Below are positions 1,428 through 24,835 of a stretch of DNA of 39,564 nucleotides, piece after piece. The DNA is from a virus. Position 1 is the first letter of the stretch. Each line of letters starts with the position of its first letter. The notes under the pieces are model-generated. The model made no database searches and was not told the origin of the DNA. It worked only from the letters and a program-made list of their open reading frames with translations. The position numbers and the translations under genes were made by a program. Where the stretch lies: positions 1 through 39,564 of IMG/VR virus record IMGVR_UViG_3300027917_000087; one strand, given 5' to 3'.

Positions 1428-1495
1428 AGTGTTACGAGAAAAAGAACCTAGAAGAGCCTTCGAGCACTCAAACCTATTATTTGGAGGTAACGAAC

Positions 1496-2509
1496 ATGCC
1501 TGAAATCACAACCTACGGAGATATATCACCAAGAACCGCCGCACACGCCGCCGCACAGTTACTTGAAAGAGGGCAACATTTGATGGTAACTGAAAGATTC
1601 GGTCAGGCAAAACCCCTACCAAAGAAGCACACTCAAACCGTTAAGTTTAGAAGGTATGAGAGCCTTGCGAGGGCTACTTCCCCCTTGGCAGAGGGTGTAA
1701 CCCCCCCTGGGCAAAAATTAACCAAAACGGACATTACCGCCGTTCTCCAACAGTATGGTGATCTGGTTACGATTACCGATGTTGTTCGGGACACTCACGA
1801 AGATCCTGTTCTTCGGGAAGGCGTTGATGTAGCTGGAGAGCAGATCCAGGAAACCGTTGAGGTTATCAGGATTTCCAAGCTGAAAGCTGGAAGTACCGTA
1901 TTCTATGCTGATAGCGTGGCATCCCGATCTGTAGTAAACGGCACTATCAAGGCTGGGGATCTTCGCCAGATTGTTAGATTCTTTAACAAGATGAAAGCGA
2001 GAAAGATCAGCCAGATCGTGAAAGCATCGGCAGAGGTATCCACCGAACCAGTAGCCGCCGCTTTCTTCGCTATGTGCCATACCGATCTGATCTCTGATAT
2101 TAGAGATACGGCTGGCTTTGTTCCTGTGGAGCAGTATTCCAACAGCGATAAGGGACTTCCTGGGGAAGTCGGTAAAGTGGAAGAGATTCGCTTTATCGCT
2201 ACCGCCCTTTTCGAGCCCTGGATGGCGGCTGGTGCTTCTGGAACAACCTATCTCTCTAATGGATCCATCCCAAGTGCCGCCGCCGCTTGTGATGTTTACC
2301 CTGTAATCGTGGTGGCACAAAACGCCTATGGGATCGTTCCCCTTCAAGGAGAAGGAGCTGTTACCCCTACGGTCATTAACCCCACTCCTACCAAGTCGGA
2401 TCCGTTAGGTCAGCGTGGATCTATTGGCTGGAAAACGTGGCAGACGGTAGCCATTCTGAATCAGAGCTGGCTTGCCCGATATGAAGTAGCGGCAACCGCA
2501 AAACCGTAA
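1496..2509 (+). CDS. major capsid protein, N4-gp56 family
   Basis: The 337-residue protein starts at ATG 1496 behind GGAGGT. The upstream in-frame TTG at 1481 overlaps that binding site. It has the features of the N4-gp56 family HK97-fold capsid proteins: an early ISPRTAAHAAAQLL helix, a basic segment QTVKFRRYESL, the loop region SPLAEGVTPPGQ, LQQYGDLVTITDVV, and a C-terminal domain ending in GSIGWKTWQTVAILNQSWLARYEVA. Length is within the family's usual 300-400 residues. It forms the icosahedral shell. The gene has good spacing on both sides and a possible weak terminator downstream, as expected for a highly expressed product. Confidence 0.92.
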   Translation: MPEITTYGDISPRTAAHAAAQLLERGQHLMVTERFGQAKPLPKKHTQTVKFRRYESLARATSPLAEGVTPPGQKLTKTDITAVLQQYGDLVTITDVVRDTHEDPVLREGVDVAGEQIQETVEVIRISKLKAGSTVFYADSVASRSVVNGTIKAGDLRQIVRFFNKMKARKISQIVKASAEVSTEPVAAAFFAMCHTDLISDIRDTAGFVPVEQYSNSDKGLPGEVGKVEEIRFIATALFEPWMAAGASGTTYLSNGSIPSAAAACDVYPVIVVAQNAYGIVPLQGEGAVTPTVINPTPTKSDPLGQRGSIGWKTWQTVAILNQSWLARYEVAATAKP

Positions 2510-2517
2510 CTCTAACC

Positions 2518-2560: not shown

Positions 2561-2574
2561 TGGAGGAACAAACC

Positions 2575-3249: not shown

Positions 3250-3270
3250 CCCACTAACCACAAAATTCCC

Positions 3271-3317: not shown

Positions 3318-3328
3318 TGGAGGATATT

Positions 3329-4746: not shown

Positions 4747-4755
4747 GAGAAACTA

Positions 4756-5511: not shown

Positions 5512-5514
5512 AAT

Positions 5515-6246: not shown

Positions 6247-6248
6247 TT

Positions 6249-7244
6249 ATGCCAACTCAATATGGTGGATTAGGGGGCGGTAGAGGATCATCCCCCTATC
6301 AGTACAACATTATCAGACCGCCAGGGGGCGTTAATGAGGTGGGATCGCAGTACACCGATATGGACCGAGATTACTTCGGGGAGTTTATGGATGCTTACCG
6401 ATCTGGCAAGGAACGCAGAAAAGCGGAAAGGCTCCAAGCCCAGGAACAGGCTATGAAGATCTCTGAAATGCTTGGATCTGTACCGCCAGAGCTGGAAGAT
6501 GAGATCCTTGGACCAATACAGCCAGATGATCCCACTTTAGGCGAAAGAGCCCTGGGCGGTTTAGGGCGATTGGTTGGGATTGATACTGAAATGGGATTAC
6601 AGCCCGAACAGTTTGAGATACCAGAAGGCGGCAAGTTATCCACTCAATACGAGCGTGATGTAGAAAAATCCCAACGAGAAGCCGCAACAGCCGCCAGTAA
6701 AGAAGAAATGCGTTTTCTTCGGGGGCTTATCGGGAAAAAATACCAATCGGATCTCAACGTCCAGGAAAAAAAGGAATTGTTCAATCAAGGATTATGGAAC
6801 CCTTCTTTGAGTTATGCCCAAAGAATTGAGCTTATTCACGAAAAAGAGAGGGCAAAGAAAAAAGCTGGGACCGTAGGTGGTAGGAAACAGACCGCCAAAG
6901 AGAAATTAAAAGACGATCTCTATACAGGTAGGAAAACCTTAGAGGATTTAGATGATGCCGATTTCCTAATCCTGGATAAATTCTGGTCCTCTATGACACC
7001 AGAAGCACGAGCCGAAGATGCTTTGAGTTATGCTGAAAATCTTGTATCTTCCTACACAAAAGGTAAAATTCCAAAACCGACAGAGGAAGAGATAAACCAG
7101 ATGGTTGATAGGATGGCAGAGCAGTACGTTCAGAAACAAAATGATCTTATCGGCAAAATGGGCGGTAAAGGGTCTAGGAGAGGGAAAGGTGGTACATCCA
7201 GGAGCAGGGCTGATAGGCTGAATCAAATTATGAACGCACAGTAG
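6249..7244 (+). CDS. coiled-coil putative virion protein
   Basis: The 331-residue protein starts at ATG 6249 after GGAGGTTAATT. A Gly/Pro-rich head (about residues 1-35) is followed by a long charged helical region (residues about 45-300) with heptad-like Lys/Glu/Ala/Leu patterns. The C-terminus is basic and Gly-rich (GKMGGKGSRRGKGGTSRSR), suited to nucleic-acid contact. There is no membrane segment or enzyme motif. It lies between the paralogous Gly-rich pair and the giant polyvalent gene, in the place where podoviruses carry internal or ejection proteins. No named family is recognised. Confidence 0.55.
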   Translation: MPTQYGGLGGGRGSSPYQYNIIRPPGGVNEVGSQYTDMDRDYFGEFMDAYRSGKERRKAERLQAQEQAMKISEMLGSVPPELEDEILGPIQPDDPTLGERALGGLGRLVGIDTEMGLQPEQFEIPEGGKLSTQYERDVEKSQREAATAASKEEMRFLRGLIGKKYQSDLNVQEKKELFNQGLWNPSLSYAQRIELIHEKERAKKKAGTVGGRKQTAKEKLKDDLYTGRKTLEDLDDADFLILDKFWSSMTPEARAEDALSYAENLVSSYTKGKIPKPTEEEINQMVDRMAEQYVQKQNDLIGKMGGKGSRRGKGGTSRSRADRLNQIMNAQ

Positions 7245-7256
7245 GAGGGTTTAAAG

Positions 7257-10200
7257 ATGCCCCTACGGTTAGAAGAGCAATATCCTTATTATGCCGATAG
7301 GATAGCAAATGCCAGGGAAGAAGGATTTTCAGAAGATGAAGTATTTAATTGGATCCAGGACAGAGTAAAAGAAGCCCTAGATGAAGGTTATGATGAACAG
7401 GAAATCTATGACTTCATGGGGTCCCCACAAGGTTTCCAACCACTATCCGAAGCTGATTTATCAGGTGCGGATGCCATTAGCGGAGCAGAACAACCACCGC
7501 CAGAACCCATAGAACCATACAGCATAATACGTCCAGATGCCATTACAGAAGCCGACCCAGGGCAAGGTCCTATCAGAACAAGGCATCAGCTCGAACCAGA
7601 GGACGAGATTCGTTTCCAGGAATGGTACAAGAAACATGCGAAAAAATGGGGGCTCGATCCAGATCCCGATGCTTTTGAGCATAAGTACGATTATCGGGGA
7701 GCGTATCTCAATGGCGTGGAACCTGATGAAACAGGACATTGGGCATCAGCTTTCAAGGATCCCGATCATCCTAACCGATTCGTGGATGGAGTGGACACAA
7801 TCACAGGGCTTACGGCTGATGATTTTAACCCCGATTTACCAGGGGCAGAGCTACGGCAAGCAGAGCGAGAGGAAGAGAATGGCGTTATTAACCGCATCAA
7901 GGAGCTGGGGGAACTACCGCCAGAACAAATTCTTCCTGGTGGATTAGGTCTAATTGTCGAGGAAGGTATAAAGCAGGGGAAAAAGGTTTTAACCAGGAAG
8001 CCCGATGAGGAAGCCGCAAGAGCCCAAAACATTATTGGTATAGCGAAGGCGTATGATATACCTATCGAGCGAGCCAGGAAGGATTATGATAGGATTATAG
8101 AAGGATTGGGATTAAAAGGCGGTCCCGAAACAATACCAGGGCTCGCCGAGGAAATGGCTATGAAGTTCATGCTGGTCCCGATTGCGGCTGGCATTATAGC
8201 TAATCCTCTTACAATTCCTTCCGTTGTCCTGGGCGTGGGTGCTTTCATGGCGTTAGATGAAGCGGAGAGTTACATCGTCCAGAAAACCCAGGGAGAGGAC
8301 TACAAAGCCCTGGCAGGGAGAAACTTTTCCGAATTACTGCCAGAGGAAGCGAATGAGTTTGCCAGGGAGAGTTTAGATCTTCTTAGCTTTATTGCCAAAA
8401 TTCAAGCCCTTCGGATGAGCCAGGGAACTACCGCAAAGATCAGGAGTGGCACACAAAAGCTCTTTGAGCGATTCACTAAAGAGGTAGTTACCGAGTACGG
8501 AATCCCCAGGAAATACACTTTCCGACCATCGGAAGTAGATGCTGTATTCAGAAGAGCGAAAGATCAAGAAGTAAATCCCCAGGCAGAAGCGGTCATTAAG
8601 GACCTTATGGGAAGAAAAGGACTCTCCCGAAAAGAGGTCCAGGAAGCTATAGATAAAGGTCTTGAAGTCGAGATAACGGCTGAAAAGATAGTAAAAATAG
8701 CCGATAAACCGTATTGGGGCAAAATTAAGAGCCTGTTCGGGATTAAACCTTTCAGCAGGGAGATTTCAACCACAGCAGGGGGGAAAATAGAAGCGAAAAT
8801 CCCCCGAAGAGCCCTACCCCCTGGCAAGGGAAAGAAAGGCGAGAAACCCCCCACTCAACCCCCCTCTAAGCCGCCAGAAGCCCCCACAGAGGAAGTAAAG
8901 CCAACTCTTGAAGAAGATCTAGGGACCCTGGGAGAAAAGCCGCCAGAGGTCCGTTTAAGTGGCAAGATTGGCAAAATAGACACCTATGGCAGACTAAGAA
9001 GGACCAAAACCCGACTTACCAAACAAATAGAAGAATTACCCGAAGAGAAAAGGGCTCCTTTGCTTGAACAGCTCGAAACCAAAGAGAAGGAGTTATTTGA
9101 GAAGCTAACTCCAGAAGAGCGAGCTAAGTTCGAGAAGAAGCCCAAAGGGAAGAAAAAAGAGCCTATCGTTACGGAACCCCCAAAGGAACCAGAGCCAGAA
9201 TTAACCGATGAAGAGATAGCACAAAGAGCCATAGCAGAAGTAGAAGCCCTGGATGAAGCCCCTTTTAAAGAAATGGGTAGGCTCGCTGGAGTGGAGTTTA
9301 GATCATTTTATCCTACGCCAGAAGGTCCTACCGTTAGTTTCCACGATCCTGAATCTGGAGGTGATCTTGGATTGCCACTAAAGGATCTCACCTTTGAAGG
9401 ATTGCAAGCGGAAATCAAAAGGGTTAGAGAGTACCTACCCGAATTGACCGAAGAGGAAAAAGCCGCCAGGAAGGAAACCCTGGGGGAAACACCGATAGAA
9501 GATCTTTTAAAGCCAGAGGATCCGATTGAAAAAGATTTGTTGTCAGGAACAGGATCTCTATCTGATCGGCTTAATAGTGCTATGGACAGGGTGGATGCGG
9601 ATGAATCCCTATCCCCCCAGCAAAAAAAGGAGAAAAAAACAGCACTACAAGTAAAATACAACGAGATAGCAGATCGAGCCCAGGGGATTACAGAGGTCCC
9701 CCCATTGACCGAAGAGCAACGGCAGAGGATAAAAGAAGAAGTAAGTGGGCTTCAAGCAGAGTTTGAGGGGCTTAAAGATCGGATAGCTAAAGCTAAAAGA
9801 TCTGAACTTGCAGGGATCTTCACCGAAATAGTGGATGCTGGGTGGGACGAAAACTCCAGGAACGAGCTGGAAAAGCTGATCGACAAAAGGCTAGAGGAAA
9901 CACAAGACGATCTAGCCGAAGCTCCGTTTACCGAAGGGGAAAGACAAGATCTTATAAAAAAAGTCCTTGAATTTCGTAAGGATATTAGAGGGAAGGATAA
10001 AGAACGCTTTGCCGAGAAGGTTACGGACGAAGATCTGGTTAAAATGTCAGAAGCGATTGATAGGGTCAAAGAGAGGGTGGACCAGGACATTATCAATCGA
10101 CTAGAGGAAATAGCCAAGGGATCAGAGAAAAAGAACCTTCTTAGACAATTCAGGCGAGATTATGAGCGTGGGGCTCTCCCAGCTCCAAAGGACTTTAAGG

Positions 10201-13200
10201 ACCATCCTGAACTCATGGAAGCCTGGGGAGGAAAAGAAGGGGTTATTAAAGCCTACAAAGAGCTGGACCCTGAATCTCCCATAGAAGAGTTTTTAGAGGG
10301 CAAGGACTTTAAAGCGGCGATTACAGGCGATGATCCCATAGGAAAGAACGCAGAAGGCAAACAGCTCTATGAGGATGAGAAAGGGGTAAGATCCTACTAC
10401 GAGGACAACTTTAAAGTAACCGAGCCAGTAACAATACTCCCTACAGGTGAAACCTTTGTAGAAGGAAGAAGGGATGAATACAAGACGGTTGAAGAGCTCG
10501 AAAAGGAGAAAAGGGATACAGAGAATCCCATTGTGGTCCAGTTCACCGATGAGAATAATATCCAACTAGCCGTAAGGAAGTTAAAAGATGGTCAGTACGG
10601 CGTAACTATATCTGATCTCGATGCTGGGGAAGGGCTGGGAACCGTTACGAAGTTTAAGGACAAAGCCGCCGCATTAAAGATGTTCGACTCTGAAAAAGAG
10701 CAGATGATTAAACGGCAGACCCCCAGGGAGAAAACAGCCGAACCGCTTAAAATGAATGATGAGGATCTTATTGAGTGGTTAAAGAAGGAAAAAAGACCTA
10801 CCTATCCCAGCGAGGACCTAGTATCCCTTATTCGATACCCCGACCAGCAAAACGCTCCCCTGGCATTGGAGAAGATTAAACGCTATTTGCACGAGAATGA
10901 AAATGCCTATAAAGAGTACAAGGAAAAAATGGGTGAATTTCCTGAATTGGCATTTTTACCAGAGCAGTACGAAGTAGCTCAAATGATATATAATCGGTTG
11001 ACAAAAGGACCAAAATCTGATATAAAAGAAGGTGTAAAGGAGCCGAAAGATGCTGAATCCATTGGGCAGAGAGATACAGAAGCATTGGGAGGAAAACCGC
11101 CCGAAACTGGTGAAGCAGTTGAAGGCGAGGGGGAAGGAGAAGGCGTTCTTCCAGAACCTACAGGAGAAGGCGGCAGAGCTGGGGGAAAGCCTGTGGAAGA
11201 AGGGGCTGAACCCCGACCAAGTGAGAGAGGTGGTAAGGGAGCAGTATTACCCACCAAGCGAAAAGGACCAGCCAAAACTAGGGGAGCCCCTCAACTTAGA
11301 CCAGGAAACAACTACTCCATAACAAGTCCCACCGAAAAAGAATCCATCACTAACGTAGGAACCGAAGTAGAGAGGTATGATCGTAATATAGAAGCGATCA
11401 AACTTCTAAAAGAGCTTGAAGCATCGGGCAAAAAAGCTACTCCAGATCAGCAGAAGGTTTTAGTTCGGTATGTTGGCTGGGGTGGATTGCCTAAAGTCTT
11501 TGACCGATGGGGTCAGGCTAATTGGGTCCAAAGAGGGAAAGAACTAGAAGAGCTCTTAACCGAAGAAGAGTATGATGCCGCACGAAGAAGCACTCCAAAC
11601 GCTCACTACACTTCACCTAAAGTAATCGACATTATCTATGATGCCCTTAAACAGATCGGGTTTAAGGGAGGGAAAGTCCTGGAACCGTCAGCAGGGATAG
11701 GGCATTTTATAGGAATGATGCCCCCTGAATTGATGGGTAGGTCAAAGTTTACTGGTATCGAGCTGGATCCCATTACTGGTAGAATAGCTCAACAGCTCTA
11801 CCAGGGGCATGATATTAGGGTATCAGGATACGAGGATGTAAGACTTCCAAACAACTTCTACGATGTTGCAGTTGGGAATGTTCCCTTCGGGGATTACAAG
11901 GTCTACGATCCAGAATACAAAGGGCTTAAAGTCCCCATTCACGATTACTTCTTCATCAAAACCCTGGATAAGATAAAACCAGGGGGGATTGCCGCATTAA
12001 TTACCAGCCGTTATACCCTGGATAAGCAAGACACTAAAGTTAGAAAAATGATCGCTGATAAGGCAGATCTTGTAGCGGCTTTTAGATTGCCCTCTTCTGC
12101 TTTTAAGGGGATTGCCAATACCGAGGTAGTAACCGATATTCTCATTCTTAGAAAGAAAGTTCCAGGTGAAGTATTTAAGGGCGAGGACTTCATAAAAACA
12201 AAAGAAACAAAACTTAAAAAAGACGAGAAGCAAGGAAACGTCCAAACAAATGAATACTACCATAATAATCCTGGTATGATCCTGGGGACCGAGAGCCTTA
12301 CTGGTAGTATGTATGCTGATAGCACTTATACAGTAGAAGGAATCTTAAAAGAGGAACAAAGAACCTATGGAAAGGAGATCCTTGGGAATCTTATCTCTAA
12401 ACTCCCTACTAATGTGTATGTTGAAGGATTTGCAAAACCGCCAGCCGAGCCAAGTCCCGATGATATTATTGGAGTGAAGGGTGATGTAAAAGAAGGCGGT
12501 TACAAGGTAGAGGGCGGCAAGATTTACCAGAGAGAAGGCGATAATATGGTGAAGGTTGATTTCCCAGCAGGGAATATCGTCAGAGCCAAACGGCTTATCG
12601 CTGTCAAAGATGCGGTTAGGGATCTTATAAGAGTACAGTTACAAACCGAGGAAGGAGAAAGGCGACCAGGGGACAGCTTCGAGAGAGCACAAAAAGAGCT
12701 AAACAGGCTCTATGATGATTTCGTAAAGAAACATGGGTATGTCAACAGCAAAGCAAATTACCCCTTACTTCAAGGTGATCCCGATGTACCCATATTACTA
12801 GCCATAGAAAAATACGATCCTAAAACTGGAAAGGCGTTTAAAACGCCTTTTTTTACGGAAAGGACCATTCAGAAGTACACCAGACCAGAGAAAGCGGATA
12901 CGGCTGGTGAAGCCCTCTTGATCTCCCTTAATGAGAAGGGAAGAGTAGATTTTGAAAGAATGACGGAACTCACAGGAAAAAACCCTGAAACACTCCAGGC
13001 AGAGCTTAAAGGGCAGATATACAAGAATCCCGATGGTGAAACCTGGGAGATTGCAGATGAATACCTTACAGGGGATGTAAAGTCCAAGCTGGAAGCCGCC
13101 AGGGAAGCCGCTAAATACGATGAGGACTATATTACCAATGTGGAAGCCCTGGAGAAAAATCAGCCGCCAGATGTTCCAGCAGAGGAAATAACAACAAGGT

Positions 13201-16200
13201 TAGGTGTAACCTGGATCCCTGAACAGGATTATAAAAACTTCATAATGGAGATTTTAGAAAGTCAGGCGGCAGAGGTGAAGGTTGATTACGTCCCTACTGG
13301 TGGGTGGATAGTCAGGGCGAGAAGAGGAAGGAGTGGAACGTGGTCAAGCACACAGTATCCGCAATCCGAACAAAGTAGGCTTAAATACGCAACAAAAGAA
13401 AGAACCACCTTAAAACTCCTGGATGCCGCTTTTAATTCCAGGAATGTGGTTATAAAGATCAGGGACGATGATGGTAAAGTTATAGGGACCGATCAGGTAG
13501 CAACCGCAGAAAACATGCGAATCATACAAGAGCTCCAGGACCTTTTCAAAGAGTGGGTATTAAAGGACCAGGAAAGAAGATCCCGATTGTCAGCTAAGTA
13601 TAACGAGGAAATGAACAGGATCCGACCCCGAACAAGTTTTGATGGATCGCATTTAACTCTCCCTGGAAGTAACCCAGGGATTGTTATGAGAAAGCACCAG
13701 AAGGATGGAGCCTGGAGGATTATTACCAGTAAAAGAAATACCCTGCTCGAACATGAAGTAGGGGCTGGAAAGACTTACACCATCATAGCGGCGGCTATGG
13801 AATCCAAACGGCTGGGGCTCGTTAAAAAGCCGATGATTACCGCTTTCAAGCATCAAGTACCCGATTTCCAGAAAAGTATATACGAACTCTACCCAGCCGC
13901 TAGAGCACTCGTCCCGACACAAAAAGACTTCACCCCACAAAACAGAAGAAAGATCCAGGCTCAAATAACTACAGGTGATTGGGATATTATTGTCCTCTCC
14001 CATGAACAAGCTGAAAAGCTGTCTATGTCGAAAAAGGCACAAAGAGATTACATAGAGGAACAGCTTGCCGAAGTGGAGTTTGCCCTGTCAGATGCCAAAG
14101 AACAGGGACTTAGAAAATCAGATCCCACCGTTAAGCAGATCGAGAAAGCTAAGTTACGGTTAATGGCACAGTTAAAAGAATTAATGGACTCCCCGAAAGA
14201 TACAGGAGTTACCTTTGAAGAGCTTGGGGTTGATATGCTTTTGGTTGATGAAGCCCAAAAGTATAAGAACCTTCAATATATGAGCACAAGATCCAGAGTT
14301 TCAGGATTGGGGAATCCACAAGGGAGCAAACGAGCGAATGACCTTTACATGAAATCCAGGTACATTAACAAGCTGAATGGTGGCAGGGGCATTGTGTTTA
14401 CAACCGCTACGCCAGTTACTAACAGCATGGTAGAGATGTACTCTGTTTTGAGATACCTCTATCCCGAAGCCCTGGAACAGATGGGGGTTAAACATTTCGA
14501 TGCGTGGGCTAACCAATTCGGTCAAGACGTTACATCCCTGGAAGTAGAGCCTACAGGACAGGGATTCAGGATGAACACGAGATTTAGGCGTTTTGTCAAT
14601 ATGCCTGAATTGATGCAAGTCTACCGAGAAGTTTCCGATATTCAGACACAGGAAATGCTAAAACTCCCTAGACCGCAAATTAAAGGGGGAGCCCAGGAAG
14701 CCGTAGCGGTGGAATCATCGGACGCTCAAAAAGAGTTTGTAGATGAGCTGGTAAAAAGAGCCGAGGATGTAAGAAGCGGCGGCGTGGATCCCAGGGATGA
14801 TAATATGTTGAAGATCACCACCGATGGAAGAAAAGCGGCGGTGGATATGCGGCTTGTGGATCCTACAGCAGAGGATTATCCAGACAGTAAACTTAATAAG
14901 GCGGTTGATAAGATCTACGAGATCTGGAAAAAAACCGAGGGAAATAAAAGCACCCAGCTTGTTTTCTCTGATCTAGGAACGCCAAACACTAAGGGCTTTA
15001 ATGTCTACGCCGATATGAAAAGTAAACTTGTTCGGCTGGGCATCCCGAAAAATGAGATAGCGTTTATCCATGATGCTACAACAGAAGCACAGAAACAAAG
15101 CCTTTTCGATGATGTTGTTGATGGAAAGATAAGGATTCTGTTCGGCTCTTCTGAAAAAATGGGAACAGGAATGAACGTACAGAAGAAACTCATAGCCCTT
15201 CATCACATGGATCCACCCTGGACCCCAGCTCTCATTGAACAGAGAGAAGGAAGGATCCTTCGGCAAGGGAATGAAAACGATGAAGTTGAGATATTCAGAT
15301 ATGCCACTACTGGCACTTTTGATGCTTATATGTGGCAAACCCTGGAGAATAAACAGGGATTTCTAGGTCAGGTTAAAAGAGGGGATATTAGCAGAACGGT
15401 TGAAGATATTGATGGTAGAGCCCTATCATTCGCTGAAATGAAAGCGATTGCTTCTGGTGATCCGATTGTGAGAGAACGGATTGAAACAGAAATGAGGGTA
15501 AACGAACTTAGGAATCTGCACAAAGCATGGCAGAGAAAACGCTGGGGAGCCGAGGACACCATAGCGAGGGGACCGCACAAGATAGAAGGGTATCAGACCG
15601 AAATTGATATGATGGAGAAAGATATTGCCCTTCGTGAAAAGAATCCCCTGGTGGAAGTTGATGGGGTTAAGCAGTTTGAAATAATGGTAGGAGAACAGAG
15701 ATTTGCAGATCGAGTAGAAGGTGGCGAAGCATTTATAAAATTCTACCAGGAACAGAAACCTATAAAACCCGATGAAGATTCGGTCCTGGCTGGGAAATAC
15801 AGGGGATTCGAGCTTCGATTAAAGAAGTTTAAAAAACTAGCCCCCCGATTGTTCTTGAAGGGGGATGCCACTACCTATGAAGTCGGGCTCCCCTGGATGA
15901 TAGATGAGGATGTAGAGAAAGCAGATCCTTCGGGCATTATGACCAGGATTGAGAACGAAGCTAACCGAATTGATACTTACATCCAAAACGGCAAGGACAG
16001 GATAAAGATCATCGAAGAGGAAGTAGAAGCCGCCCAAAAGAGCCTGGAAGAGCCTTTTAAGCACGAACAGGAGCTTAGAGAAAAAGAGAAGAAGATGGAC
16101 GAGCTCTTGGAAGAGCTGGAGCCAGGGGATGAGGAAGTAGGAGATACAGAGGGGATCCTGGAGAGGAAAAGGCAGATAGGAGAGGAAAAGCTAGAGGGAG

Positions 16201-19200
16201 AAGAAGAACTTGCCTATGATCCAGAGAGGGGGATTTTCAGGACCAGATTGCAAGAGCCAAGCGGTGAAATGGTTTGGAAAGCAGTTAGAGGGGAGAAAGT
16301 AGAGCTGAAAGAAGGGTATGACTTCTTTGCTTATAAGGATGCTGAATCTGAAACGTGGCATGTTATCGAACAATCGACAGGTTTAGCCATAACTGGAAGA
16401 GGTATTTACAGTAAGGCAGAAGCGGTCAAACAGGCGAACAACAATCTTGCAAAAGCAGGGGATGAGAATTTTAGAAGAGCCGTAGAAGCAAAATTAGAAG
16501 AAATTAAGCAAGAAGAAGGTAGGCTTGAAGAACCTCTTTCCAATTATAGCTTACTGAAAGAAGATGCAAAAACAGCCTTCGGTGGTGAAAAAAGGCAAGC
16601 TAGAGTCATAGAGAATATGGCGAAACAGTTAGATCTCTTCGAGAAAGAAACAGGAATTAGAGGACTAACTGAAAGCGTTAAGGCTTATAAGGGTAGCCTA
16701 GCGGATACTCTTAGGAAAAACAAAAGCGTTGATTTGAGAGGGTATAGACTTACCAAGGGGGACGAAGCAAGGGAAATTGCTGAACTGTTCCAGATATACA
16801 GAAACCCCAAAATGGAAATAATGCACGAAATATACACCGATAAAGAAGGAAAGGTCTTAGCTCATACGGCGGTTACTTCTGGTGCAGTTAATTATGTAAG
16901 GTTTAAAGACACTTTACGGAACATCCAGGAAACCAAGAGAAGAATGAAACGTCTTGGAGCTAATAAAGTTCATTTTCTTCACAACCATCCTTCGGGAACA
17001 TCCTGGATGAGTGAATCAGATAAGCAAATGGGATCCTATATGAAATTGCATCTAAAGGGGAAGATGGGGGAGTATGTCGTTATAGATCATGGTACTTTTG
17101 CCTATCTAACAAAAATAAATGTTAAGAGATCCCCAGGGGTATTTCCGAATTTTTCCTACAATGTAGAACAGGACCAAAAACCGTTTCAGCTAAAGAGGGG
17201 GGCTGGAATGTGGATGGTGAGCAAGAAGAAATCCCCTGCTCTAATTGGTCCTGATGTTGTAGCTGGATTTGCCAAGGATTTAATGAAGAAAAACAGAACG
17301 GTAGTGGCTTTCATAGATTCACAGAATCAGGTGCAGGGATGGGCTTCTGTCAGCGACTATACTTTCCTGATGAAACCGAACTGGAAGGAAATAATAAGGG
17401 ATTACACGAAAGCCCACGATGCTACGTCAGCTATTCTCGTTACAGGGTCTAAAGAGGTTAGGAACCTGGGTAATGCTCCAGTAGGAGATGTTCTTACAGA
17501 AATACTATATGACAGGGGAGAGGACGTATCGCCAGGGGAAAGATTTGAAAGCGTAAGAAGAAGCGAACCGCAGAGATTTGATGATACTAGAAAGTGGATC
17601 CACGAGCAAAAGACAGCAAGAAGGCTTTTTGAGGAACAAGCCCCCTACGGTGAGGACCTAACGCCAGAACAAGCGGAAGCCCTGGCAAGGGCAGAAGAGC
17701 AAGTGGCAAAGATGATGCACGATGCTAGACAGCGAGGGATCAGATTCGGTAGAAAGTATTTAAAGAGCCTGGGCTATACACCTAAACAGATCACACAGAT
17801 CTTAAAGGTGAAAAGATTCATGCAGAACAAACAGCAGAAACTAGGAACGCCGAGGGAAAACGCCGTTAATGTTTTGGAAATGCACTTGCGGTCAGCAGAA
17901 AGATTAAAGTCGTTAAAGAAAACAAATTATCCTAGACTCTACAGGACCTTAAAACGTGGGGTAGTTGATGTAAGCGGCAATATAAAACCGAGAATGTTGA
18001 AGGCTGGTGAACCTGGGAAAGTAGCAGTTATAAGACACGATCTATCGGCTGGGGCTACTCCCTGGGCTCAAAGGCAGTTTGAGGAAGCGACAGATAGGAT
18101 CTACGGAAAAGGCGAGTGGGGCAAAGAGCTTTCCAGGCAAAATGAAGAGATCCTAAATATGGTTATCAATTCCCGAAGGATCGTAACGATTGATAACTAC
18201 AAAGAAGGTATGAAGCATCCCGAAGGATACACAGGGGACCATCACGCTGATTATCTTGACTACGAGAACTTTAAACACGCTTTTAAGAACGCAAAGACAC
18301 CAGATGGAAAACCCCTTGATATGGATATATCAGAGGACTTCTATCGGGAACTTATAGAGAGATCTAATCTCTGGTTTGATGAAATGAACAGGATGCTTAA
18401 AAAGCTCTATGATAAAGGATTGATTTCAGAAGCCAGCTACGATGCTATGGTGGAGATCGGTGAATATGCTCCCCGATTCTTTATCCAGCACATAGATCCC
18501 GATAAGTCCTACACCTTCGGCGGTGGAAAGACCATTACCGTTTCTAGTAGCGGAATTAAGAAACTGGAAAGCGGCAGTTATGAAACCCTGGAGCTCGATT
18601 CAAGGTTGTTACTCTATCAGGTCATAGCCAGGACCGAGAACAGGATAGCCAAAAATGATGCTAATTTGGCACTATGGGAGCTCGCAGAGCAAGTTCCTGA
18701 AAATGGACTTGTGAGAAAAGCGGTCATTCAGAGCTACACGCCGAAGGGTGTTCCGAACTTCGAGAAAACCCCAGCCAGACACGAAGAAATTGATGTAATG
18801 ATAGACGGTCAGAGAAGAAGGATGTTTATGCCTGATGAATGGGCAAGAGAGTGGGTGATGCGAGATCCTTCTATAGATCAGGGCGTAGCTAACTGGATTG
18901 GCTGGCTGTCAGGAGCTAATCTTCTTAGACCTATGGCAACTGGTATGTTCGCTCCAGAGTTTTTCATTACCAATCTAGCCAGGGATGCGGCTCACTTATG
19001 GGTAGTTACCGATACTTTCTCCAGCTTCCTTCCCTATGCTATGGCACAGTACGGAAAGGCTATTAAGGCGGTTTACAAAGATGCTCTCGCTAAAACAGGA
19101 CTCTATGAACTATATATAAAATACGGCGGCGGCATGAATTTCCTCACAAAACAGGGTCATTTCACTCCGACAAAGTATTCAAAGACCCTGGAGAAATTTG

Positions 19201-20597
19201 AGAAAATAGGCTCCTACCTGGGCGAATCGTCAGAAATCTTAAACCGTTTGGCTCTAATGCAGATGGAAATGTGGAAGGCTGGCGTGGATAAAATGGAAGA
19301 GGGTAGCCCTGAATGGGAAAGGGCGGTCCAGGAAGCCGTATGGGTAGCCAGGAACTATATCGACTTCTACCAGGGTGGGTCCTGGGCGAAGATGCTCGAT
19401 ACAGGAGTTCCCTATTTAAACGCTGGGATCCAGGGGACCAGGGGGATTGCCAGGGCGGTTAATCAGGATTGGAAGAAAACCACCTGGAAGATCTCACAGC
19501 TTATGATGCTCGCTACTGGTCTATATCTTGCCAACTACTTAATAAACAAGGAAACGCTTGACAACATATCCGAAAGCGATCAGATAAGGTACTGGTGTAT
19601 AACCATGCCTGGGAAGATAACCGACTCGAAGGGGAATAAAAGGGGCTGGTATTTTATTGTTGCCAAGGATCAGGGACAGAGATTTTTTGCACAGATAGCA
19701 GAGCAATCTATGAGAGCTATGATGGGTGAGCCAGTAATGTGGAACAATCTGCAAGAAGGGTTTAAAGATATGATCCCTGTTATTCCTACTCAAATGCTAC
19801 CGCCGACAATAGATGCTATCTATGGCTACGCAAATAACAAAGATTTTTGGCTTCAAAAGGAAATTTGGCGAGATAAGTTCAATCCTGTAGGAAGGATCGA
19901 GCCAAGGTTAGAATATACCGACTACACCCATCCAGCTCTGGTTGAGTTCGGGGATGTAACAAACACTTCGCCAGAACGGTTGAAATATATCCTGGAACAG
20001 TTTTTTACCTATGGAAATGTGTTTACTTCTATAGTGGGCGGTGCGACAAGAATGATGATGAGAAAACTCCCAGGAAATGAAGGAGATAAGGTTTTGGAGG
20101 AAATTTTAGCTAGACAGCCTGGGATCAGAAAATTAGTAAGGCTTACCAGGGAAACCCCCGATATTGAGAGAAGAGAAGCTAACGATGCTTTACGAAGGAT
20201 TTATAGCAGAAGGTTTGAACAGAGAAGAAAGGTTATGAATCTATCCGAAGAGTATTATGCACAAGAGAAACAGAAAATGCCAGAAGCAGAACAAACGGCG
20301 AAACTGCTCAATTCCTATATCGCAGAACAGCCAGAAGGCGATAGGAAGCGGCTTACAGAGATGTTTGAGGATTATCCCTTGTATGATGATATTCCAGACA
20401 GGGGATGGTGGCTATCCCTTCGGGGTATGCCAGCAGAAGCAAAAGCGTATGTGTATTTCAGCAAATGGGTGAGAGCCAATCCAGAGAAACGAGAGCAACT
20501 GGAGAGCATGAGATCCTACATGCCTGGAATGAAAAGTGATGCCTTTGTGGAAGAATTTTCAAAACTTTATGAGAAATCGAAGGAACTATCAAAATGA
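7257..20597 (+). CDS. giant polyvalent protein: DNA methyltransferase, SNF2-like helicase, JAMM/RadC-like domain, LPD38-like C-terminus
   Basis: The 4446-residue product starts behind GGAGGGTTTAAAG. Residues about 113-185 match a domain common in phage virion proteins (RFQEWYKKHAKKWG, YDYRGAY, ETGHW). A hydrophobic patch lies at about 300-330, then a long Pro/Glu/Lys coiled region to about 1330. An N6-adenine-type methyltransferase follows, with SAM motif LEPSAGIGHF at 1475 and catalytic NVPF at 1541-1544. Next is a helicase/ATPase of the DarB-like type: Walker A GAGKT at 2169-2173, DEAQ at 2331-2334, TATP at 2383-2386, QREGRILRQGN at 2662-2672. An intact JAMM motif follows: Glu3191, His3242, His3244, Ser3252, Asp3255. 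The last 700 residues resemble LPD38 (PEFFITNLARD near 3900). Such proteins are packaged and injected to protect phage DNA. The stop overlaps the next start (ATGA). Confidence 0.9.
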   Translation: MPLRLEEQYPYYADRIANAREEGFSEDEVFNWIQDRVKEALDEGYDEQEIYDFMGSPQGFQPLSEADLSGADAISGAEQPPPEPIEPYSIIRPDAITEADPGQGPIRTRHQLEPEDEIRFQEWYKKHAKKWGLDPDPDAFEHKYDYRGAYLNGVEPDETGHWASAFKDPDHPNRFVDGVDTITGLTADDFNPDLPGAELRQAEREEENGVINRIKELGELPPEQILPGGLGLIVEEGIKQGKKVLTRKPDEEAARAQNIIGIAKAYDIPIERARKDYDRIIEGLGLKGGPETIPGLAEEMAMKFMLVPIAAGIIANPLTIPSVVLGVGAFMALDEAESYIVQKTQGEDYKALAGRNFSELLPEEANEFARESLDLLSFIAKIQALRMSQGTTAKIRSGTQKLFERFTKEVVTEYGIPRKYTFRPSEVDAVFRRAKDQEVNPQAEAVIKDLMGRKGLSRKEVQEAIDKGLEVEITAEKIVKIADKPYWGKIKSLFGIKPFSREISTTAGGKIEAKIPRRALPPGKGKKGEKPPTQPPSKPPEAPTEEVKPTLEEDLGTLGEKPPEVRLSGKIGKIDTYGRLRRTKTRLTKQIEELPEEKRAPLLEQLETKEKELFEKLTPEERAKFEKKPKGKKKEPIVTEPPKEPEPELTDEEIAQRAIAEVEALDEAPFKEMGRLAGVEFRSFYPTPEGPTVSFHDPESGGDLGLPLKDLTFEGLQAEIKRVREYLPELTEEEKAARKETLGETPIEDLLKPEDPIEKDLLSGTGSLSDRLNSAMDRVDADESLSPQQKKEKKTALQVKYNEIADRAQGITEVPPLTEEQRQRIKEEVSGLQAEFEGLKDRIAKAKRSELAGIFTEIVDAGWDENSRNELEKLIDKRLEETQDDLAEAPFTEGERQDLIKKVLEFRKDIRGKDKERFAEKVTDEDLVKMSEAIDRVKERVDQDIINRLEEIAKGSEKKNLLRQFRRDYERGALPAPKDFKDHPELMEAWGGKEGVIKAYKELDPESPIEEFLEGKDFKAAITGDDPIGKNAEGKQLYEDEKGVRSYYEDNFKVTEPVTILPTGETFVEGRRDEYKTVEELEKEKRDTENPIVVQFTDENNIQLAVRKLKDGQYGVTISDLDAGEGLGTVTKFKDKAAALKMFDSEKEQMIKRQTPREKTAEPLKMNDEDLIEWLKKEKRPTYPSEDLVSLIRYPDQQNAPLALEKIKRYLHENENAYKEYKEKMGEFPELAFLPEQYEVAQMIYNRLTKGPKSDIKEGVKEPKDAESIGQRDTEALGGKPPETGEAVEGEGEGEGVLPEPTGEGGRAGGKPVEEGAEPRPSERGGKGAVLPTKRKGPAKTRGAPQLRPGNNYSITSPTEKESITNVGTEVERYDRNIEAIKLLKELEASGKKATPDQQKVLVRYVGWGGLPKVFDRWGQANWVQRGKELEELLTEEEYDAARRSTPNAHYTSPKVIDIIYDALKQIGFKGGKVLEPSAGIGHFIGMMPPELMGRSKFTGIELDPITGRIAQQLYQGHDIRVSGYEDVRLPNNFYDVAVGNVPFGDYKVYDPEYKGLKVPIHDYFFIKTLDKIKPGGIAALITSRYTLDKQDTKVRKMIADKADLVAAFRLPSSAFKGIANTEVVTDILILRKKVPGEVFKGEDFIKTKETKLKKDEKQGNVQTNEYYHNNPGMILGTESLTGSMYADSTYTVEGILKEEQRTYGKEILGNLISKLPTNVYVEGFAKPPAEPSPDDIIGVKGDVKEGGYKVEGGKIYQREGDNMVKVDFPAGNIVRAKRLIAVKDAVRDLIRVQLQTEEGERRPGDSFERAQKELNRLYDDFVKKHGYVNSKANYPLLQGDPDVPILLAIEKYDPKTGKAFKTPFFTERTIQKYTRPEKADTAGEALLISLNEKGRVDFERMTELTGKNPETLQAELKGQIYKNPDGETWEIADEYLTGDVKSKLEAAREAAKYDEDYITNVEALEKNQPPDVPAEEITTRLGVTWIPEQDYKNFIMEILESQAAEVKVDYVPTGGWIVRARRGRSGTWSSTQYPQSEQSRLKYATKERTTLKLLDAAFNSRNVVIKIRDDDGKVIGTDQVATAENMRIIQELQDLFKEWVLKDQERRSRLSAKYNEEMNRIRPRTSFDGSHLTLPGSNPGIVMRKHQKDGAWRIITSKRNTLLEHEVGAGKTYTIIAAAMESKRLGLVKKPMITAFKHQVPDFQKSIYELYPAARALVPTQKDFTPQNRRKIQAQITTGDWDIIVLSHEQAEKLSMSKKAQRDYIEEQLAEVEFALSDAKEQGLRKSDPTVKQIEKAKLRLMAQLKELMDSPKDTGVTFEELGVDMLLVDEAQKYKNLQYMSTRSRVSGLGNPQGSKRANDLYMKSRYINKLNGGRGIVFTTATPVTNSMVEMYSVLRYLYPEALEQMGVKHFDAWANQFGQDVTSLEVEPTGQGFRMNTRFRRFVNMPELMQVYREVSDIQTQEMLKLPRPQIKGGAQEAVAVESSDAQKEFVDELVKRAEDVRSGGVDPRDDNMLKITTDGRKAAVDMRLVDPTAEDYPDSKLNKAVDKIYEIWKKTEGNKSTQLVFSDLGTPNTKGFNVYADMKSKLVRLGIPKNEIAFIHDATTEAQKQSLFDDVVDGKIRILFGSSEKMGTGMNVQKKLIALHHMDPPWTPALIEQREGRILRQGNENDEVEIFRYATTGTFDAYMWQTLENKQGFLGQVKRGDISRTVEDIDGRALSFAEMKAIASGDPIVRERIETEMRVNELRNLHKAWQRKRWGAEDTIARGPHKIEGYQTEIDMMEKDIALREKNPLVEVDGVKQFEIMVGEQRFADRVEGGEAFIKFYQEQKPIKPDEDSVLAGKYRGFELRLKKFKKLAPRLFLKGDATTYEVGLPWMIDEDVEKADPSGIMTRIENEANRIDTYIQNGKDRIKIIEEEVEAAQKSLEEPFKHEQELREKEKKMDELLEELEPGDEEVGDTEGILERKRQIGEEKLEGEEELAYDPERGIFRTRLQEPSGEMVWKAVRGEKVELKEGYDFFAYKDAESETWHVIEQSTGLAITGRGIYSKAEAVKQANNNLAKAGDENFRRAVEAKLEEIKQEEGRLEEPLSNYSLLKEDAKTAFGGEKRQARVIENMAKQLDLFEKETGIRGLTESVKAYKGSLADTLRKNKSVDLRGYRLTKGDEAREIAELFQIYRNPKMEIMHEIYTDKEGKVLAHTAVTSGAVNYVRFKDTLRNIQETKRRMKRLGANKVHFLHNHPSGTSWMSESDKQMGSYMKLHLKGKMGEYVVIDHGTFAYLTKINVKRSPGVFPNFSYNVEQDQKPFQLKRGAGMWMVSKKKSPALIGPDVVAGFAKDLMKKNRTVVAFIDSQNQVQGWASVSDYTFLMKPNWKEIIRDYTKAHDATSAILVTGSKEVRNLGNAPVGDVLTEILYDRGEDVSPGERFESVRRSEPQRFDDTRKWIHEQKTARRLFEEQAPYGEDLTPEQAEALARAEEQVAKMMHDARQRGIRFGRKYLKSLGYTPKQITQILKVKRFMQNKQQKLGTPRENAVNVLEMHLRSAERLKSLKKTNYPRLYRTLKRGVVDVSGNIKPRMLKAGEPGKVAVIRHDLSAGATPWAQRQFEEATDRIYGKGEWGKELSRQNEEILNMVINSRRIVTIDNYKEGMKHPEGYTGDHHADYLDYENFKHAFKNAKTPDGKPLDMDISEDFYRELIERSNLWFDEMNRMLKKLYDKGLISEASYDAMVEIGEYAPRFFIQHIDPDKSYTFGGGKTITVSSSGIKKLESGSYETLELDSRLLLYQVIARTENRIAKNDANLALWELAEQVPENGLVRKAVIQSYTPKGVPNFEKTPARHEEIDVMIDGQRRRMFMPDEWAREWVMRDPSIDQGVANWIGWLSGANLLRPMATGMFAPEFFITNLARDAAHLWVVTDTFSSFLPYAMAQYGKAIKAVYKDALAKTGLYELYIKYGGGMNFLTKQGHFTPTKYSKTLEKFEKIGSYLGESSEILNRLALMQMEMWKAGVDKMEEGSPEWERAVQEAVWVARNYIDFYQGGSWAKMLDTGVPYLNAGIQGTRGIARAVNQDWKKTTWKISQLMMLATGLYLANYLINKETLDNISESDQIRYWCITMPGKITDSKGNKRGWYFIVAKDQGQRFFAQIAEQSMRAMMGEPVMWNNLQEGFKDMIPVIPTQMLPPTIDAIYGYANNKDFWLQKEIWRDKFNPVGRIEPRLEYTDYTHPALVEFGDVTNTSPERLKYILEQFFTYGNVFTSIVGGATRMMMRKLPGNEGDKVLEEILARQPGIRKLVRLTRETPDIERREANDALRRIYSRRFEQRRKVMNLSEEYYAQEKQKMPEAEQTAKLLNSYIAEQPEGDRKRLTEMFEDYPLYDDIPDRGWWLSLRGMPAEAKAYVYFSKWVRANPEKREQLESMRSYMPGMKSDAFVEEFSKLYEKSKELSK
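12830..12854 (+). terminator. intrinsic-terminator-like hairpin inside the giant gene
   Basis: AAAGGCGTTTAAAACGCC followed by TTTTTTT forms a G/C-capped stem (GGCGTTT/AAACGCC region) with a 7-T run on the + strand. It falls at about codon 1858, in the linker between the methyltransferase and helicase parts, and codes for KAFKTPFF. The form is that of a Rho-independent terminator. Translating ribosomes would normally suppress it. Confidence 0.5.
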
Positions 20598-23500
20598 GCC
20601 TACGAAAGAATATAGAAGGTCAATTTGGGCTGGATAGAAGAGATTCCGCAGTTCGGAAGCAAGATGGGATCCTCTACGAGCTGGAAAATCTAATGGTGGA
20701 CGAGGGGACTCTTAGGACCAGGGAAGGAATGACAAGATTCCACGCCGATTACCTGGAGCAAAACAAAAGAGTTCTAGCCCTTCATAGATATTGGGGATTC
20801 GATGCCAACGATGGGACCGAGATAAAAGAGTTCTACGCCGCTATCGCCGCTAAGATAAAGAAATGGAGTGGATCAGCCTGGGAAGATATGGCGTTACCGC
20901 CAGATGTTACCCTTACGGACGATGAGAGGGGCGTTTTCAGGCAAGTGAGGGACAGGACCTATTACAGTAATCATGTCGAGCCTGTCCTGATGCTCAAAAA
21001 GGGGGACGATCAAGTACACCATGCTGGCATACCAGAGGTGAATCAGAGAAAAGAAATCTGTAATTGTGAAACCCTGGAGGTGGCATCGGTCCAAAAAACA
21101 GGGAACGCTCCTACCCTTAACGATGGGGAGTGGACCATCTTCACCGATGGGGAAACCAGAAATCTTCAATACTACCTGGATTCTGGCTTTGATCGGCACA
21201 CGAAGGGGGATTATGGCATTACCCTGGAACAGCACGAAGCAGGGAAAACAATGGAAGCAATCTATGTATTGCCTTCTGTTTTGAATCTTGAATGGTTCTT
21301 TGGTCCTACTAATGGGACAGCCGAATCAGGTAGCGTAGGGAACACCCTAAAGGACACAGGAGCCTTTAACGAAACCCATGTAGGGCAACAGATCAAAAAC
21401 AATACTGATGGGTCCCAGGGGGTCATTCTGGAGCTTGTGGATGCGGATAATGTAAGGACTACGTTATCAGGGGGGACCCTTAACACCTGGAGCCAGTTTG
21501 ATACTTACAGTATCGGATCACCCTCATCAGAAAATGATTATATCGCTTTCGATGTATTCAGGTGGGAGAAGATTGACATTGATGAAGTGGTGGTAGAGTT
21601 TAGTAGTGTGGCTCCTGATAACAACGGAGATTTCTCGAAGGGATTCAGGTGCGTGGTATATTCTGATGAGGGGTTCGAGCACTATAACCTGAAACAGAGG
21701 ACCATGCTTGCGGAATGGGCTAATAATGCACATGGAGATAGGCTATTCTTCTGTAAGTTCAGGAAACGGTGGTTTGTCCCCATTGGAAGTGCCGATGATT
21801 GGGACTCGATTAAATATGTGAAAGTACAGCTCCAGCAGAACGCTAACTCCCCCAATGTCGGTCCAGCTAAAATAACCATTGATAATATAAGGTTAGAAAA
21901 GACACCCCCACTCGCAGGGGAATTGAAGATCCAGGTTGCTACTTGTGATGCTACCGAGATCTGGACTAATGCAGTAGATGATTACGCCAGGGCAACAGAG
22001 GGGTTATCGTGTAAAGGGATTGCTAACGGCGTAACGGCTATTTACAACTTCCAAACGGCTGTCAAGAATTTGCAAGATTACGCAGACGGTGTTTCGATAA
22101 ACGGATCAGATGAGTTTATTTTTGATGTTTGCGGTACAGGAACAGAGGTAACTCTGAACATTTCAATAACTATGACGCTGGTTGATACAACCAATAGAAC
22201 GGCTGTAGGGGTCTTTCTTTCTGCTATGAATTTTGCGGATATACAGGTTAGAAGCCTGAACGTCCAGCAGTTTTTGGAAATGTCGGGGTTTGATTGGAGT
22301 CAGGTAAAGGAGCTTCGAGTAAATGTCCAGGGATTTCCTTATGCTTATATCGACAACATCAGGATCCAGCCAGCCGCAGTATCAAAGCTCATAAACAAGT
22401 TTATGCCATTGGATATTATAGCGGCAAAGCTGATCGAGGAAGGGATTGACCATTTATTCGGTAATAATCCTATCGTTGATGCCATTACGGACTTTTTCTT
22501 CCATGCCTACGCTACATTTACCAGGAAAGCTACAGGGCAGGGATCTTTTCTCTACCCCGACACTTCTAATGGACGGTATAAATTCGGTGATTTTTCTGCT
22601 CCCTGCTTGACCCTTGCGGCTGATCCTGGTGGATCCTTTAGCATGTCTTTCATTCAGAACACAGATCTTACCGAGTACAAGGACTACAATTTTAACCTGG
22701 ATGCCTTTTTTCACCCGAAAGAATACAGCGATACACATACCTTCGGTATTGATTGGGTGGAAGTCCCAGCTTCGGACTCTGATGAGATGAGTATATGGGT
22801 GAGCTCTCCTGATTGGAAAGCGGTAAACAGGATTATATTCAGGTTTTATACGAATCAGAAAGCATCCTGGAGCTCATCAGTAAAAACCAGTACGCATAAT
22901 GGAGCTGTTTACGATGGTGGAAAGGTCCTGGTGTCCACAAATACTTCCATTGATTTTAGGGGGAAGATAGGAAAGCGGATATACAATGAAACTTCTGGCG
23001 ATTGGGGAATAATCGGCTGGGCTCCTTTGTCAGCATCAGATAAGCATAAATGTAGTACCTGGGGTGTAACGTGGAACAATGGGGACGTTTTCTCTTTTGA
23101 TGGGTTCCTTTTTGGTGGGGCTGGGCAGAAACCTGTACCAGATACGGATGATTACTATGAATACATTTTTGATGTTCAATCGTCTTTGAGAAGATTACAG
23201 CTTTTAGGGGATAAAAGTATAAGAAAAACCCTTTCAAAATACCCTGTAGAAAACAGAGAGGTTATTGAGGGGCTTCGGACCATGTATAAGGATGATGGTT
23301 TTGACAGGATCCAGGCAGAGCCGAAAACAGGAGGGGCGGCTGGGGGGATCTCGATGGTTATATCCTGGAAACGTGGAGATATGGTCCATCACAAAAGATC
23401 AGATTCCCCCTGGAAAGGTTTTCAATGTATCGCTTCTCATCAGATAGTGGTAGAAGCAACAAGCAAGAAATCGGCACAGGTATCATTTAATGATTGGATA

Positions 23501-24835
23501 ATGAAGAAAAAGGGAGCCGTCCGAGGGGAAGTTGCTTACAAAATGCGATTAGAGGACGATCAGGGCTATCTAGGTCCGATTTCCGATGCTTCCAATACAA
23601 TCTCCCCGAAAGGAGTAGATGTTCTTTTAACCGATCTCTATGTTCCTACCGACACCAGGATCAAAAGAAAACGGCTTTACAGACCAGATGTAGGTGGAGC
23701 TTACCGTTACCTGGATACAGTTGATCGGCAAGTAGTTGAATACCTGGACCAAGTGCCAGAGGACCTATTGGGAGAGCCAATAGAGGAAGAGCTCTTCAAA
23801 CCACCAAAAGCTAATGTTATGAGCAAGGTCCAGAATAGAATGGCGTATGCTGATATTATCGACAGGGACGGTAGACACCGACCAGGAAGAGTTCAGCTTT
23901 CCCTTCCGTTCAGACCTCATCAATGTTCCGATGATGATGTATTCGATGTTCTCCCCGAAGATGGTCAGAGGATAACAGGGTTTGAATGGCATTATGGGCT
24001 TTACTATTGTTGGAAAGAGAAGAGCTTCTATACGGTGGATCCTAACAGTTTCGAGTACATTCCCAGGGAAAAGGAAATCGGATTGATAGCACGAGATAGT
24101 CTAGCCGCAATTCCTGGGCTTGGCTATGGCTGGCTCTCCCATGAAGGGCATAAGTTCGGAGATGCGAATAATATAGATCACTTTACTGGAAGGCTTATTT
24201 GGGACGATATAAAGGGATACGATAAATCTATCCTTAGAAAAGCTGTAGGGTTCTATCACGATGATTACTATTACTGCTTCGTAGGGAATACAAATGAACA
24301 TGGATACGCTTTGCATATCCCCACTAAATCATGGTTCTATATTCCTGATTGGAACGTACAATGCGTGAGCATCTTCAATGCTGGATCGGATAACAGCGAG
24401 GTTTATGCTGGTTCAAATTATGGTTATATCAACAGGCTGTTTAACGGCAATACTGATATTTCTGATGATCTGGCATCAACGGTAAGTCAAATTTCCTGGG
24501 CTTTCAGAACATTGGACTATGACTTCGAGCAACCAGTAAATTATAAATATCCCAGGTGGATCCTCACTCACGCTAAAAATCTGGTTAGCGGTGCGGCTAA
24601 CAGGGTGCAAATGATTATTACTCCTTATCTGGATCAACTGCCAGGAGATCCATACACAACAATAACAGTTCAAGGGACAGGATATTATCAGTATCAGGCA
24701 AATGGTAGGGCTCCCACAATCGGCGGCGAGAAAGGAACATTGGTAGGTATGCGAGTTACAGGATCGAAGCGTGTAGCTATCAGAAATTTCTTTATCGAAG
24801 CTGGGGATCTTGGCTTTAGACCTAACTTATGTTGA
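20594..24835 (+). CDS. large tail protein, propeller-like nozzle/hub with carbohydrate-binding-type inserts
   Basis: The 1413-residue protein starts in an ATGA overlap with the giant gene. Residues 1-150 have the pattern of podovirus tail nozzle/stabilisation proteins: ENLMVDEGTLRTREGM, then LALHRYWGF, IKKWSGSAWEDM, FRQVRDRTYYSNHVEPVLM and a GIPEV turn, as in beta-propeller blades. Two long inserts each end in a jelly-roll signature (IDNIRLEK near residue 430, IDNIRIQP near 587), suggesting carbohydrate-binding-module-like domains. Blades resume near residue 900 to 1280 (YKMRLEDDQGYLGPISDAS, RIKRKRLYRPDVGGAYRYL, AGSNYGYINRLFNG). It is probably the distal tail hub through which DNA exits. Family placement is by pattern. 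Confidence 0.6.
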   Translation: MSLRKNIEGQFGLDRRDSAVRKQDGILYELENLMVDEGTLRTREGMTRFHADYLEQNKRVLALHRYWGFDANDGTEIKEFYAAIAAKIKKWSGSAWEDMALPPDVTLTDDERGVFRQVRDRTYYSNHVEPVLMLKKGDDQVHHAGIPEVNQRKEICNCETLEVASVQKTGNAPTLNDGEWTIFTDGETRNLQYYLDSGFDRHTKGDYGITLEQHEAGKTMEAIYVLPSVLNLEWFFGPTNGTAESGSVGNTLKDTGAFNETHVGQQIKNNTDGSQGVILELVDADNVRTTLSGGTLNTWSQFDTYSIGSPSSENDYIAFDVFRWEKIDIDEVVVEFSSVAPDNNGDFSKGFRCVVYSDEGFEHYNLKQRTMLAEWANNAHGDRLFFCKFRKRWFVPIGSADDWDSIKYVKVQLQQNANSPNVGPAKITIDNIRLEKTPPLAGELKIQVATCDATEIWTNAVDDYARATEGLSCKGIANGVTAIYNFQTAVKNLQDYADGVSINGSDEFIFDVCGTGTEVTLNISITMTLVDTTNRTAVGVFLSAMNFADIQVRSLNVQQFLEMSGFDWSQVKELRVNVQGFPYAYIDNIRIQPAAVSKLINKFMPLDIIAAKLIEEGIDHLFGNNPIVDAITDFFFHAYATFTRKATGQGSFLYPDTSNGRYKFGDFSAPCLTLAADPGGSFSMSFIQNTDLTEYKDYNFNLDAFFHPKEYSDTHTFGIDWVEVPASDSDEMSIWVSSPDWKAVNRIIFRFYTNQKASWSSSVKTSTHNGAVYDGGKVLVSTNTSIDFRGKIGKRIYNETSGDWGIIGWAPLSASDKHKCSTWGVTWNNGDVFSFDGFLFGGAGQKPVPDTDDYYEYIFDVQSSLRRLQLLGDKSIRKTLSKYPVENREVIEGLRTMYKDDGFDRIQAEPKTGGAAGGISMVISWKRGDMVHHKRSDSPWKGFQCIASHQIVVEATSKKSAQVSFNDWIMKKKGAVRGEVAYKMRLEDDQGYLGPISDASNTISPKGVDVLLTDLYVPTDTRIKRKRLYRPDVGGAYRYLDTVDRQVVEYLDQVPEDLLGEPIEEELFKPPKANVMSKVQNRMAYADIIDRDGRHRPGRVQLSLPFRPHQCSDDDVFDVLPEDGQRITGFEWHYGLYYCWKEKSFYTVDPNSFEYIPREKEIGLIARDSLAAIPGLGYGWLSHEGHKFGDANNIDHFTGRLIWDDIKGYDKSILRKAVGFYHDDYYYCFVGNTNEHGYALHIPTKSWFYIPDWNVQCVSIFNAGSDNSEVYAGSNYGYINRLFNGNTDISDDLASTVSQISWAFRTLDYDFEQPVNYKYPRWILTHAKNLVSGAANRVQMIITPYLDQLPGDPYTTITVQGTGYYQYQANGRAPTIGGEKGTLVGMRVTGSKRVAIRNFFIEAGDLGFRPNLC

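Follow-up and report, generated by a model that had tools for sequence, protein, structure and literature searches.

What would a virus do with a protein of 4446 residues encoded in one reading frame, and what is the purpose of the JAMM-type motif within it? The question is raised by the window analysed here, i.e. the whole 39,564-nucleotide stretch of IMG/VR virus record IMGVR_UViG_3300027917_000087 (Table 1). An earlier note, made from the letters alone, had described the gene as one uninterrupted frame of 4446 codons that fills a third of the window and encodes a phage polyvalent protein, and both descriptions hold. The frame (33.7% of the window) contains no internal stop codon where about 273 would be expected from base composition, while the other two forward frames carry 286 and 359 stops across the same span; the product joins a number of unrelated domains, uncharacterised LPDs among them, in one chain, as phage polyvalent proteins do. 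A frame-fusion artefact was considered and is ruled out by the stop-free frame together with relatives that are equally long.

Table 1. Features within and around the giant gene; positions are counted from the first nucleotide of the window.
Feature	Position	Strand	Remarks
Major head protein gene	1481..2509	+	4.7 kb upstream of giant gene
Gene whose homologues precede the giant genes of loci L095 and L019	3898..4746	+	
AGGAGG, Shine-Dalgarno-like site	7243..7248	+	8 bases 5' of ATG
Single ORF, DarB-like phage polyvalent protein, 4446 aa	7257..20597	+	ATG start, no stop inside
N-terminal third, aa 1-1339	7257..11273	+	No family found; charged, partly proline-rich
DarB-like methyltransferase and SNF2 core, aa 1352-2937	11310..16067	+	PHROG 10089
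Adenine methyltransferase part; motif I aa 1474-1483, NVPF aa 1541-1544	11355..12317	+	
SNF2-like ATPase part, aa 2058-2716	13428..15404	+	
RadC-clade JAB domain, aa 3160-3300	16734..17156	+	Assigned by Pfam, profile and fold
LPD38-group C-terminal region, aa 3593-4446 (by homology)	18033..20594	+	Best aligned part aa 3978-4246
1413-aa ORF, no family match	20594..24835	+	Overlaps the giant gene's stop (ATGA)

The sheer size of the protein, to which the earlier note had drawn attention, has precedents. Single DarB-like genes of 11-15 kb located after structural genes are a known class in podoviruses, with JC1 gp69 (4515 aa), Pavtok gp27 (5007 aa) and the giants of SopranoGao (4369 aa) and VvAW1 (3640 aa) as representatives. 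These proteins resemble the window protein in being encoded by a single ORF of 3.6-5.0 thousand residues, in the methyltransferase-SNF2 core (about 40% identity) and, for VvAW1 and JC1, in an LPD38 C-terminus. They differ in that those tested lack a Pfam-detectable RadC domain, the position after the core being taken by either a divergent JAB-like domain or a zincin. An N-terminal lytic transglycosylase, which some of them carry, was not found in the window protein. The combination of a DarB core with RadC and LPD38 is undescribed, and the window protein is in other respects typical of a known class. A search that covered mainly the open literature turned up no DarB-type phage protein described as having a RadC domain.

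The methyltransferase and the SNF2-like ATPase that the earlier note had recognised are borne out. The motifs VLEPSAGIGH, NVPF, GAGKT, DEAQ, TATP and QREGR start at residues 1474, 1541, 2169, 2331, 2383 and 2662, and the core matches PHROG 10089, annotated as 'DarB-like antirestriction', with 1605 bits; it has the make-up of that family, an adenine methyltransferase fused to an SNF2-type ATPase with motifs intact. Against the cores of VvAW1, SopranoGao, Pavtok and two gut contigs, identity stands at 39-42%, and across six sequences N-x-P-F of the methyltransferase and GAGKT, D-E, T-x-T-P and QREGRI-RQGN of the ATPase are invariant. Profile searches, which had been proposed as a check, gave a divided answer at the level of Pfam: Helicase_C (26.8 vs 23.5 bits) and RadC (30.3 vs 22.1 bits) exceed their curated cut-offs, whereas SNF2-rel_dom (23.5 vs 24.9 bits) and Eco57I (16.8 vs 25.3 bits) stay below theirs. 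SHOCT and other sub-threshold Pfam matches were set aside, and a sequence search of the PDB with the whole protein returned no match. The N-terminal 1339 residues, with one hydrophobic segment (residues 306-324), matched no family and no relative tested, and could possibly serve as a packaging or linker region; the post-core stretch of residues 2937-3160 likewise had no match in any relative tested.

At the other end of the chain, the LPD38-like C-terminus proposed in the earlier note is recovered by indirect means. Neither hmmscan nor a direct family search detected LPD38 (PF18857) in the window protein. Residues 3593-4446 are homologous to the C-terminus of a 1577-residue protein of Desulfofustis phage LS06-2018-MD01 (27% identity, E 1e-55), in which Pfam does detect LPD38; homologue P0002 exceeds the LPD38 cut-off in a genome search with 28.7 bits, and a profile-profile alignment with LPD38-bearing C-termini covers 238 columns (probability 98.3, E 2.4e-14). 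By transitive homology and profile-profile alignment, the C-terminus is thus assigned to the LPD38 group. When viral contigs were scanned with the C-terminal third as a single sequence, there was no match, and an alignment query was required to find its relatives. LPD38-type C-termini also occur in phage proteins without a DarB core. Maribacter phage Panino (L004) has a long protein of the LPD38 type, annotated as a tRNA methyltransferase, that adjoins a large tRNA cluster with a tmRNA (14506-17269).

The JAMM motif is complete in the window protein (E3187, H3242, H3244, S3252 and D3255, with HNHPSG starting at residue 3242), as expected from the earlier note, and the type of the domain can be refined. 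Its five residues are invariant across 19 relatives of the domain, which matches the expectation for an active site. A profile of these relatives retrieved RadC of Chlorobium tepidum (2QLC) as its only match in the PDB (E 4.9e-12), and an AlphaFold model of the domain (pLDDT 79, pTM 0.78) has the same nearest fold (Foldseek E 4.6e-8; Z 14.9, rmsd 2.4 over 122 residues), compared with Z values of at most 8.4 for other MPN folds and at most 7.8 for ubiquitin-type JAB enzymes. Family, profile and predicted fold together place the domain in the RadC clade and not with the deubiquitinases. The Chlorobium protein has fold and motif in common with the window domain, but it is a cellular RadC outside any polyvalent protein.

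The subtype to which the window domain belongs, with the signature Q-[IV]-Y-R-[ND]-P-x-x-E ... HNHPSG, was also found in 12 IMG/VR and five bacterial contigs, where its carriers are long ORFs of about 1000-4600 residues and varied make-up. The nearest RadC domain (45% identity over 113 residues) lies on a Deltaproteobacteria MAG contig, VGSW01000024.1 (L107), in a protein of over 4100 residues (positions 3-12386) that shares RadC and the LPD38 C-terminus with the window protein and has ParB-like and Strawberry-notch helicase domains in place of the DarB core. A survey of polyvalent proteins had reported RadC only in those of conjugative elements and LPD38 only in those of phages (Iyer et al. 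2017); the window protein and its counterpart on this contig, each with both domains, are exceptions to that split.

What, then, occupies the corresponding position in related proteins? The sequence following the core was compared in 66 proteins whose core is followed by 500 or more residues, drawn from the window, annotated phages and 80 core-bearing IMG/VR contigs. An HExxH motif 100-500 residues past the core end was present in 30 of them and a JAMM-type motif within 700 residues in 15, none had both, and the remaining 21 had neither; shuffled tails would give 0.8 and 0.16 occurrences, respectively. The 30 HExxH cases include HEVLH and HEVYH of L045 and L065, as well as HEILH of Pavtok and L069, which lies further downstream and is maybe not a zincin. 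An alignment of 14 divergent cases shows H-E-x-x-H, a later E and E-G-x-A-E to be invariant, a pattern by which the slot zincins are judged real, even if that of VvAW1 reaches only 15.1 bits against MPTase-PolyVal, under the cut-off. The window protein itself has no HExxH in any of its 4446 residues.

The 15 JAMM-type proteins comprise the window protein, L090 (RadC, 67 bits) and a clade of 13 Bcep22-like rows. In the latter, i.e. L054 and 12 related loci, a domain with GHEYL...HNHPSx-PLSxxD stands about 130 residues after the core, its HxHx6SxxD spacing one residue shorter than that of RadC. Pfam sees this domain weakly (RadC at about 12-14 bits in some), the E, H, H, S and D are conserved, and its profile found no credible match in the PDB by sequence; its predicted fold falls weakly into the JAB/deaminase group with a nearest neighbour that is not decisive. 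Motif and weak fold matches suggest that it is JAB-like. On a tree of the core, the JAB state requires three changes, a single clade of all JAB rows is rejected (p-AU 7.1e-67), and the 13-row clade has sister rows that bear zincins. Overall, zincin and JAB domains seem to have been swapped at this slot several times over.

The mutual exclusion of zincin and JAB applies to the slot and not to the whole chain, because in L060 a JAB domain follows the core and a zincin-like HEAFH precedes it; an initial formulation, in which a chain never held both, was dropped for this reason. Position is variable elsewhere too: L023 has a JAB of the window type before the core instead, and several proteins carry their zincin ahead of the core, with none following it. 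The slot also accommodates ART-PolyVal (an ADP-ribosyltransferase) in L045, MuF_C in L021 and LPD37 in Pavtok, so that domains replacing one another there need not share a function.

Several lines of evidence bear on whether the protein enters the virion. DarB of phage P1 resides in the virion head and protects DNA in cis (PMC9024508; Iyer et al. 2017); it has a mass of 250 kDa and a packaging signal within its first 30 residues (PMC9024508). CsCl-purified virions of JC1 contain gp69, a DarB-like protein with LPD38, represented by 51 unique peptides (PMC9144972). P1 DarB shares the methyltransferase and the SNF2-type ATPase with the window protein and is unlike it in size and in acting with DarA and other Dar proteins. 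The giant gene of the window follows structural genes, as in known podoviruses, and lies near a virion gene, as expected of polyvalent proteins, namely that for the major head protein; the L095 homologue of the gene at 3898 matches an 'internal virion protein' family. Packaging of the window protein is proposed because JC1 gp69 and P1 DarB are found in virions and because of the gene position. The head gene upstream, the indirect internal virion homology and the relatives also make plausible, in an indirect way, the earlier note's placement of the gene in a podovirus ejection slot, of which the location after structural genes is the observed part. The giant gene and the 1413-residue ORF behind it may be translationally coupled because of their ATGA overlap.

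We propose, with about even confidence for and against, that the window protein is an antirestriction protein of the DarB-like, LPD38-bearing class that is packaged and injected and in which the JAB domain replaces the zincin as processing peptidase. Going by gene position and relatives, it would be synthesised late and packaged. Upon entry with the DNA, the SNF2 motor would track along the incoming double strand and the fused adenine methyltransferase would modify it, with the result, judging from P1 DarB and the intact motifs, that host restriction enzymes would not cut. The RadC/JAB domain in the place of the zincin would most likely do the same proteolytic job and mature or release parts of the giant chain, as the repeated swap at one position suggests, while the LPD38 C-terminus, reportedly confined to phage proteins, may form a virion- or ejection-related part. 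The peptidase role is favoured because JAB domains repeatedly occupy the slot of a zincin, which lends weight to the idea, already put forward in the earlier note, that the JAMM domain processes the polypeptide. That idea also meets resistance, since we know of no RadC protein with demonstrated peptidase activity. To our knowledge, P1 DarB has neither RadC nor LPD38; that it occurs in virions at about 250 kDa, and has no JAB or zincin-slot domain known to us, counts against processing.

A quite possible, though less than probable, alternative retains the same packaged DarB-like protein but has the RadC/JAB domain act on nucleic acids or nucleotides, e.g. DNA ends or a host nucleotide signal, and not on peptides. 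The assignment to the RadC clade by family, sequence profile and fold speaks for it, as does the company that the domain keeps, DNA-acting domains here and ParB-like and Strawberry-notch helicase domains in L107. For RadC, the polyvalent-protein survey anticipates a nucleic-acid processing role (Iyer et al. 2017), and a survey of polymorphic toxins likewise predicts a nuclease-like role. The recurrence of JAB domains in a zincin peptidase slot points the other way, and according to a review, the structural neighbours of DinG-linked RadC-like domains are metalloproteases, with no nuclease among them (PMC11981726).

It is improbable that the protein is a long structural one that retains its enzyme domains as relics, with selection acting only on an internal virion or ejection role. 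The position after structural genes and the LPD38-type C-termini of phage proteins that lack the core would fit such a history, but the methyltransferase and ATPase catalytic motifs are intact at an overall core identity of only about 40%, and the JAB motif is intact at about 25% identity. More improbable still is the earlier note's other suggestion, that the JAB domain removes ubiquitin-like tags with which the host defends itself. Its support is confined to the complete JAMM motif and the occurrence of ubiquitin-type JAB enzymes and BubCD among the weaker fold matches; the match to RadC is far above those, and JABs of the RadC type are reported as unlikely to have a groove for the ubiquitin tail (Iyer et al. 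2017).

The proposal that the JAB domain is a processing peptidase has a wider form, which we advance tentatively and consider less likely than not: that an interchangeable metallopeptidase slot follows the core and that RadC-clade JABs fill it as working peptidases. RadC is a very common bacterial domain with an unsettled biochemical role. If true, RadC would gain a first function, as a domain that processes injected phage proteins. The exchange of RadC and zincin at a single site opens the peptidase idea to testing.

The remainder of the window has features of its own. A tail-fibre-like protein with a weak match to the BclA C-terminus is encoded at 28694-29611 (+), followed at 29662-36251 (+) by a block of genes that probably act on surface sugars or metabolites (Methyltransf_24, and weak matches to radical SAM and to glycosyltransferase families 9 and 1). 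An ORF of 892 residues without a family (36641-39319, +) contains a polyserine tract of about 300 residues between non-repetitive parts, with single I, E or L interruptions at fairly regular steps; a shift in base skew over this gene is probably due to its serine codons.
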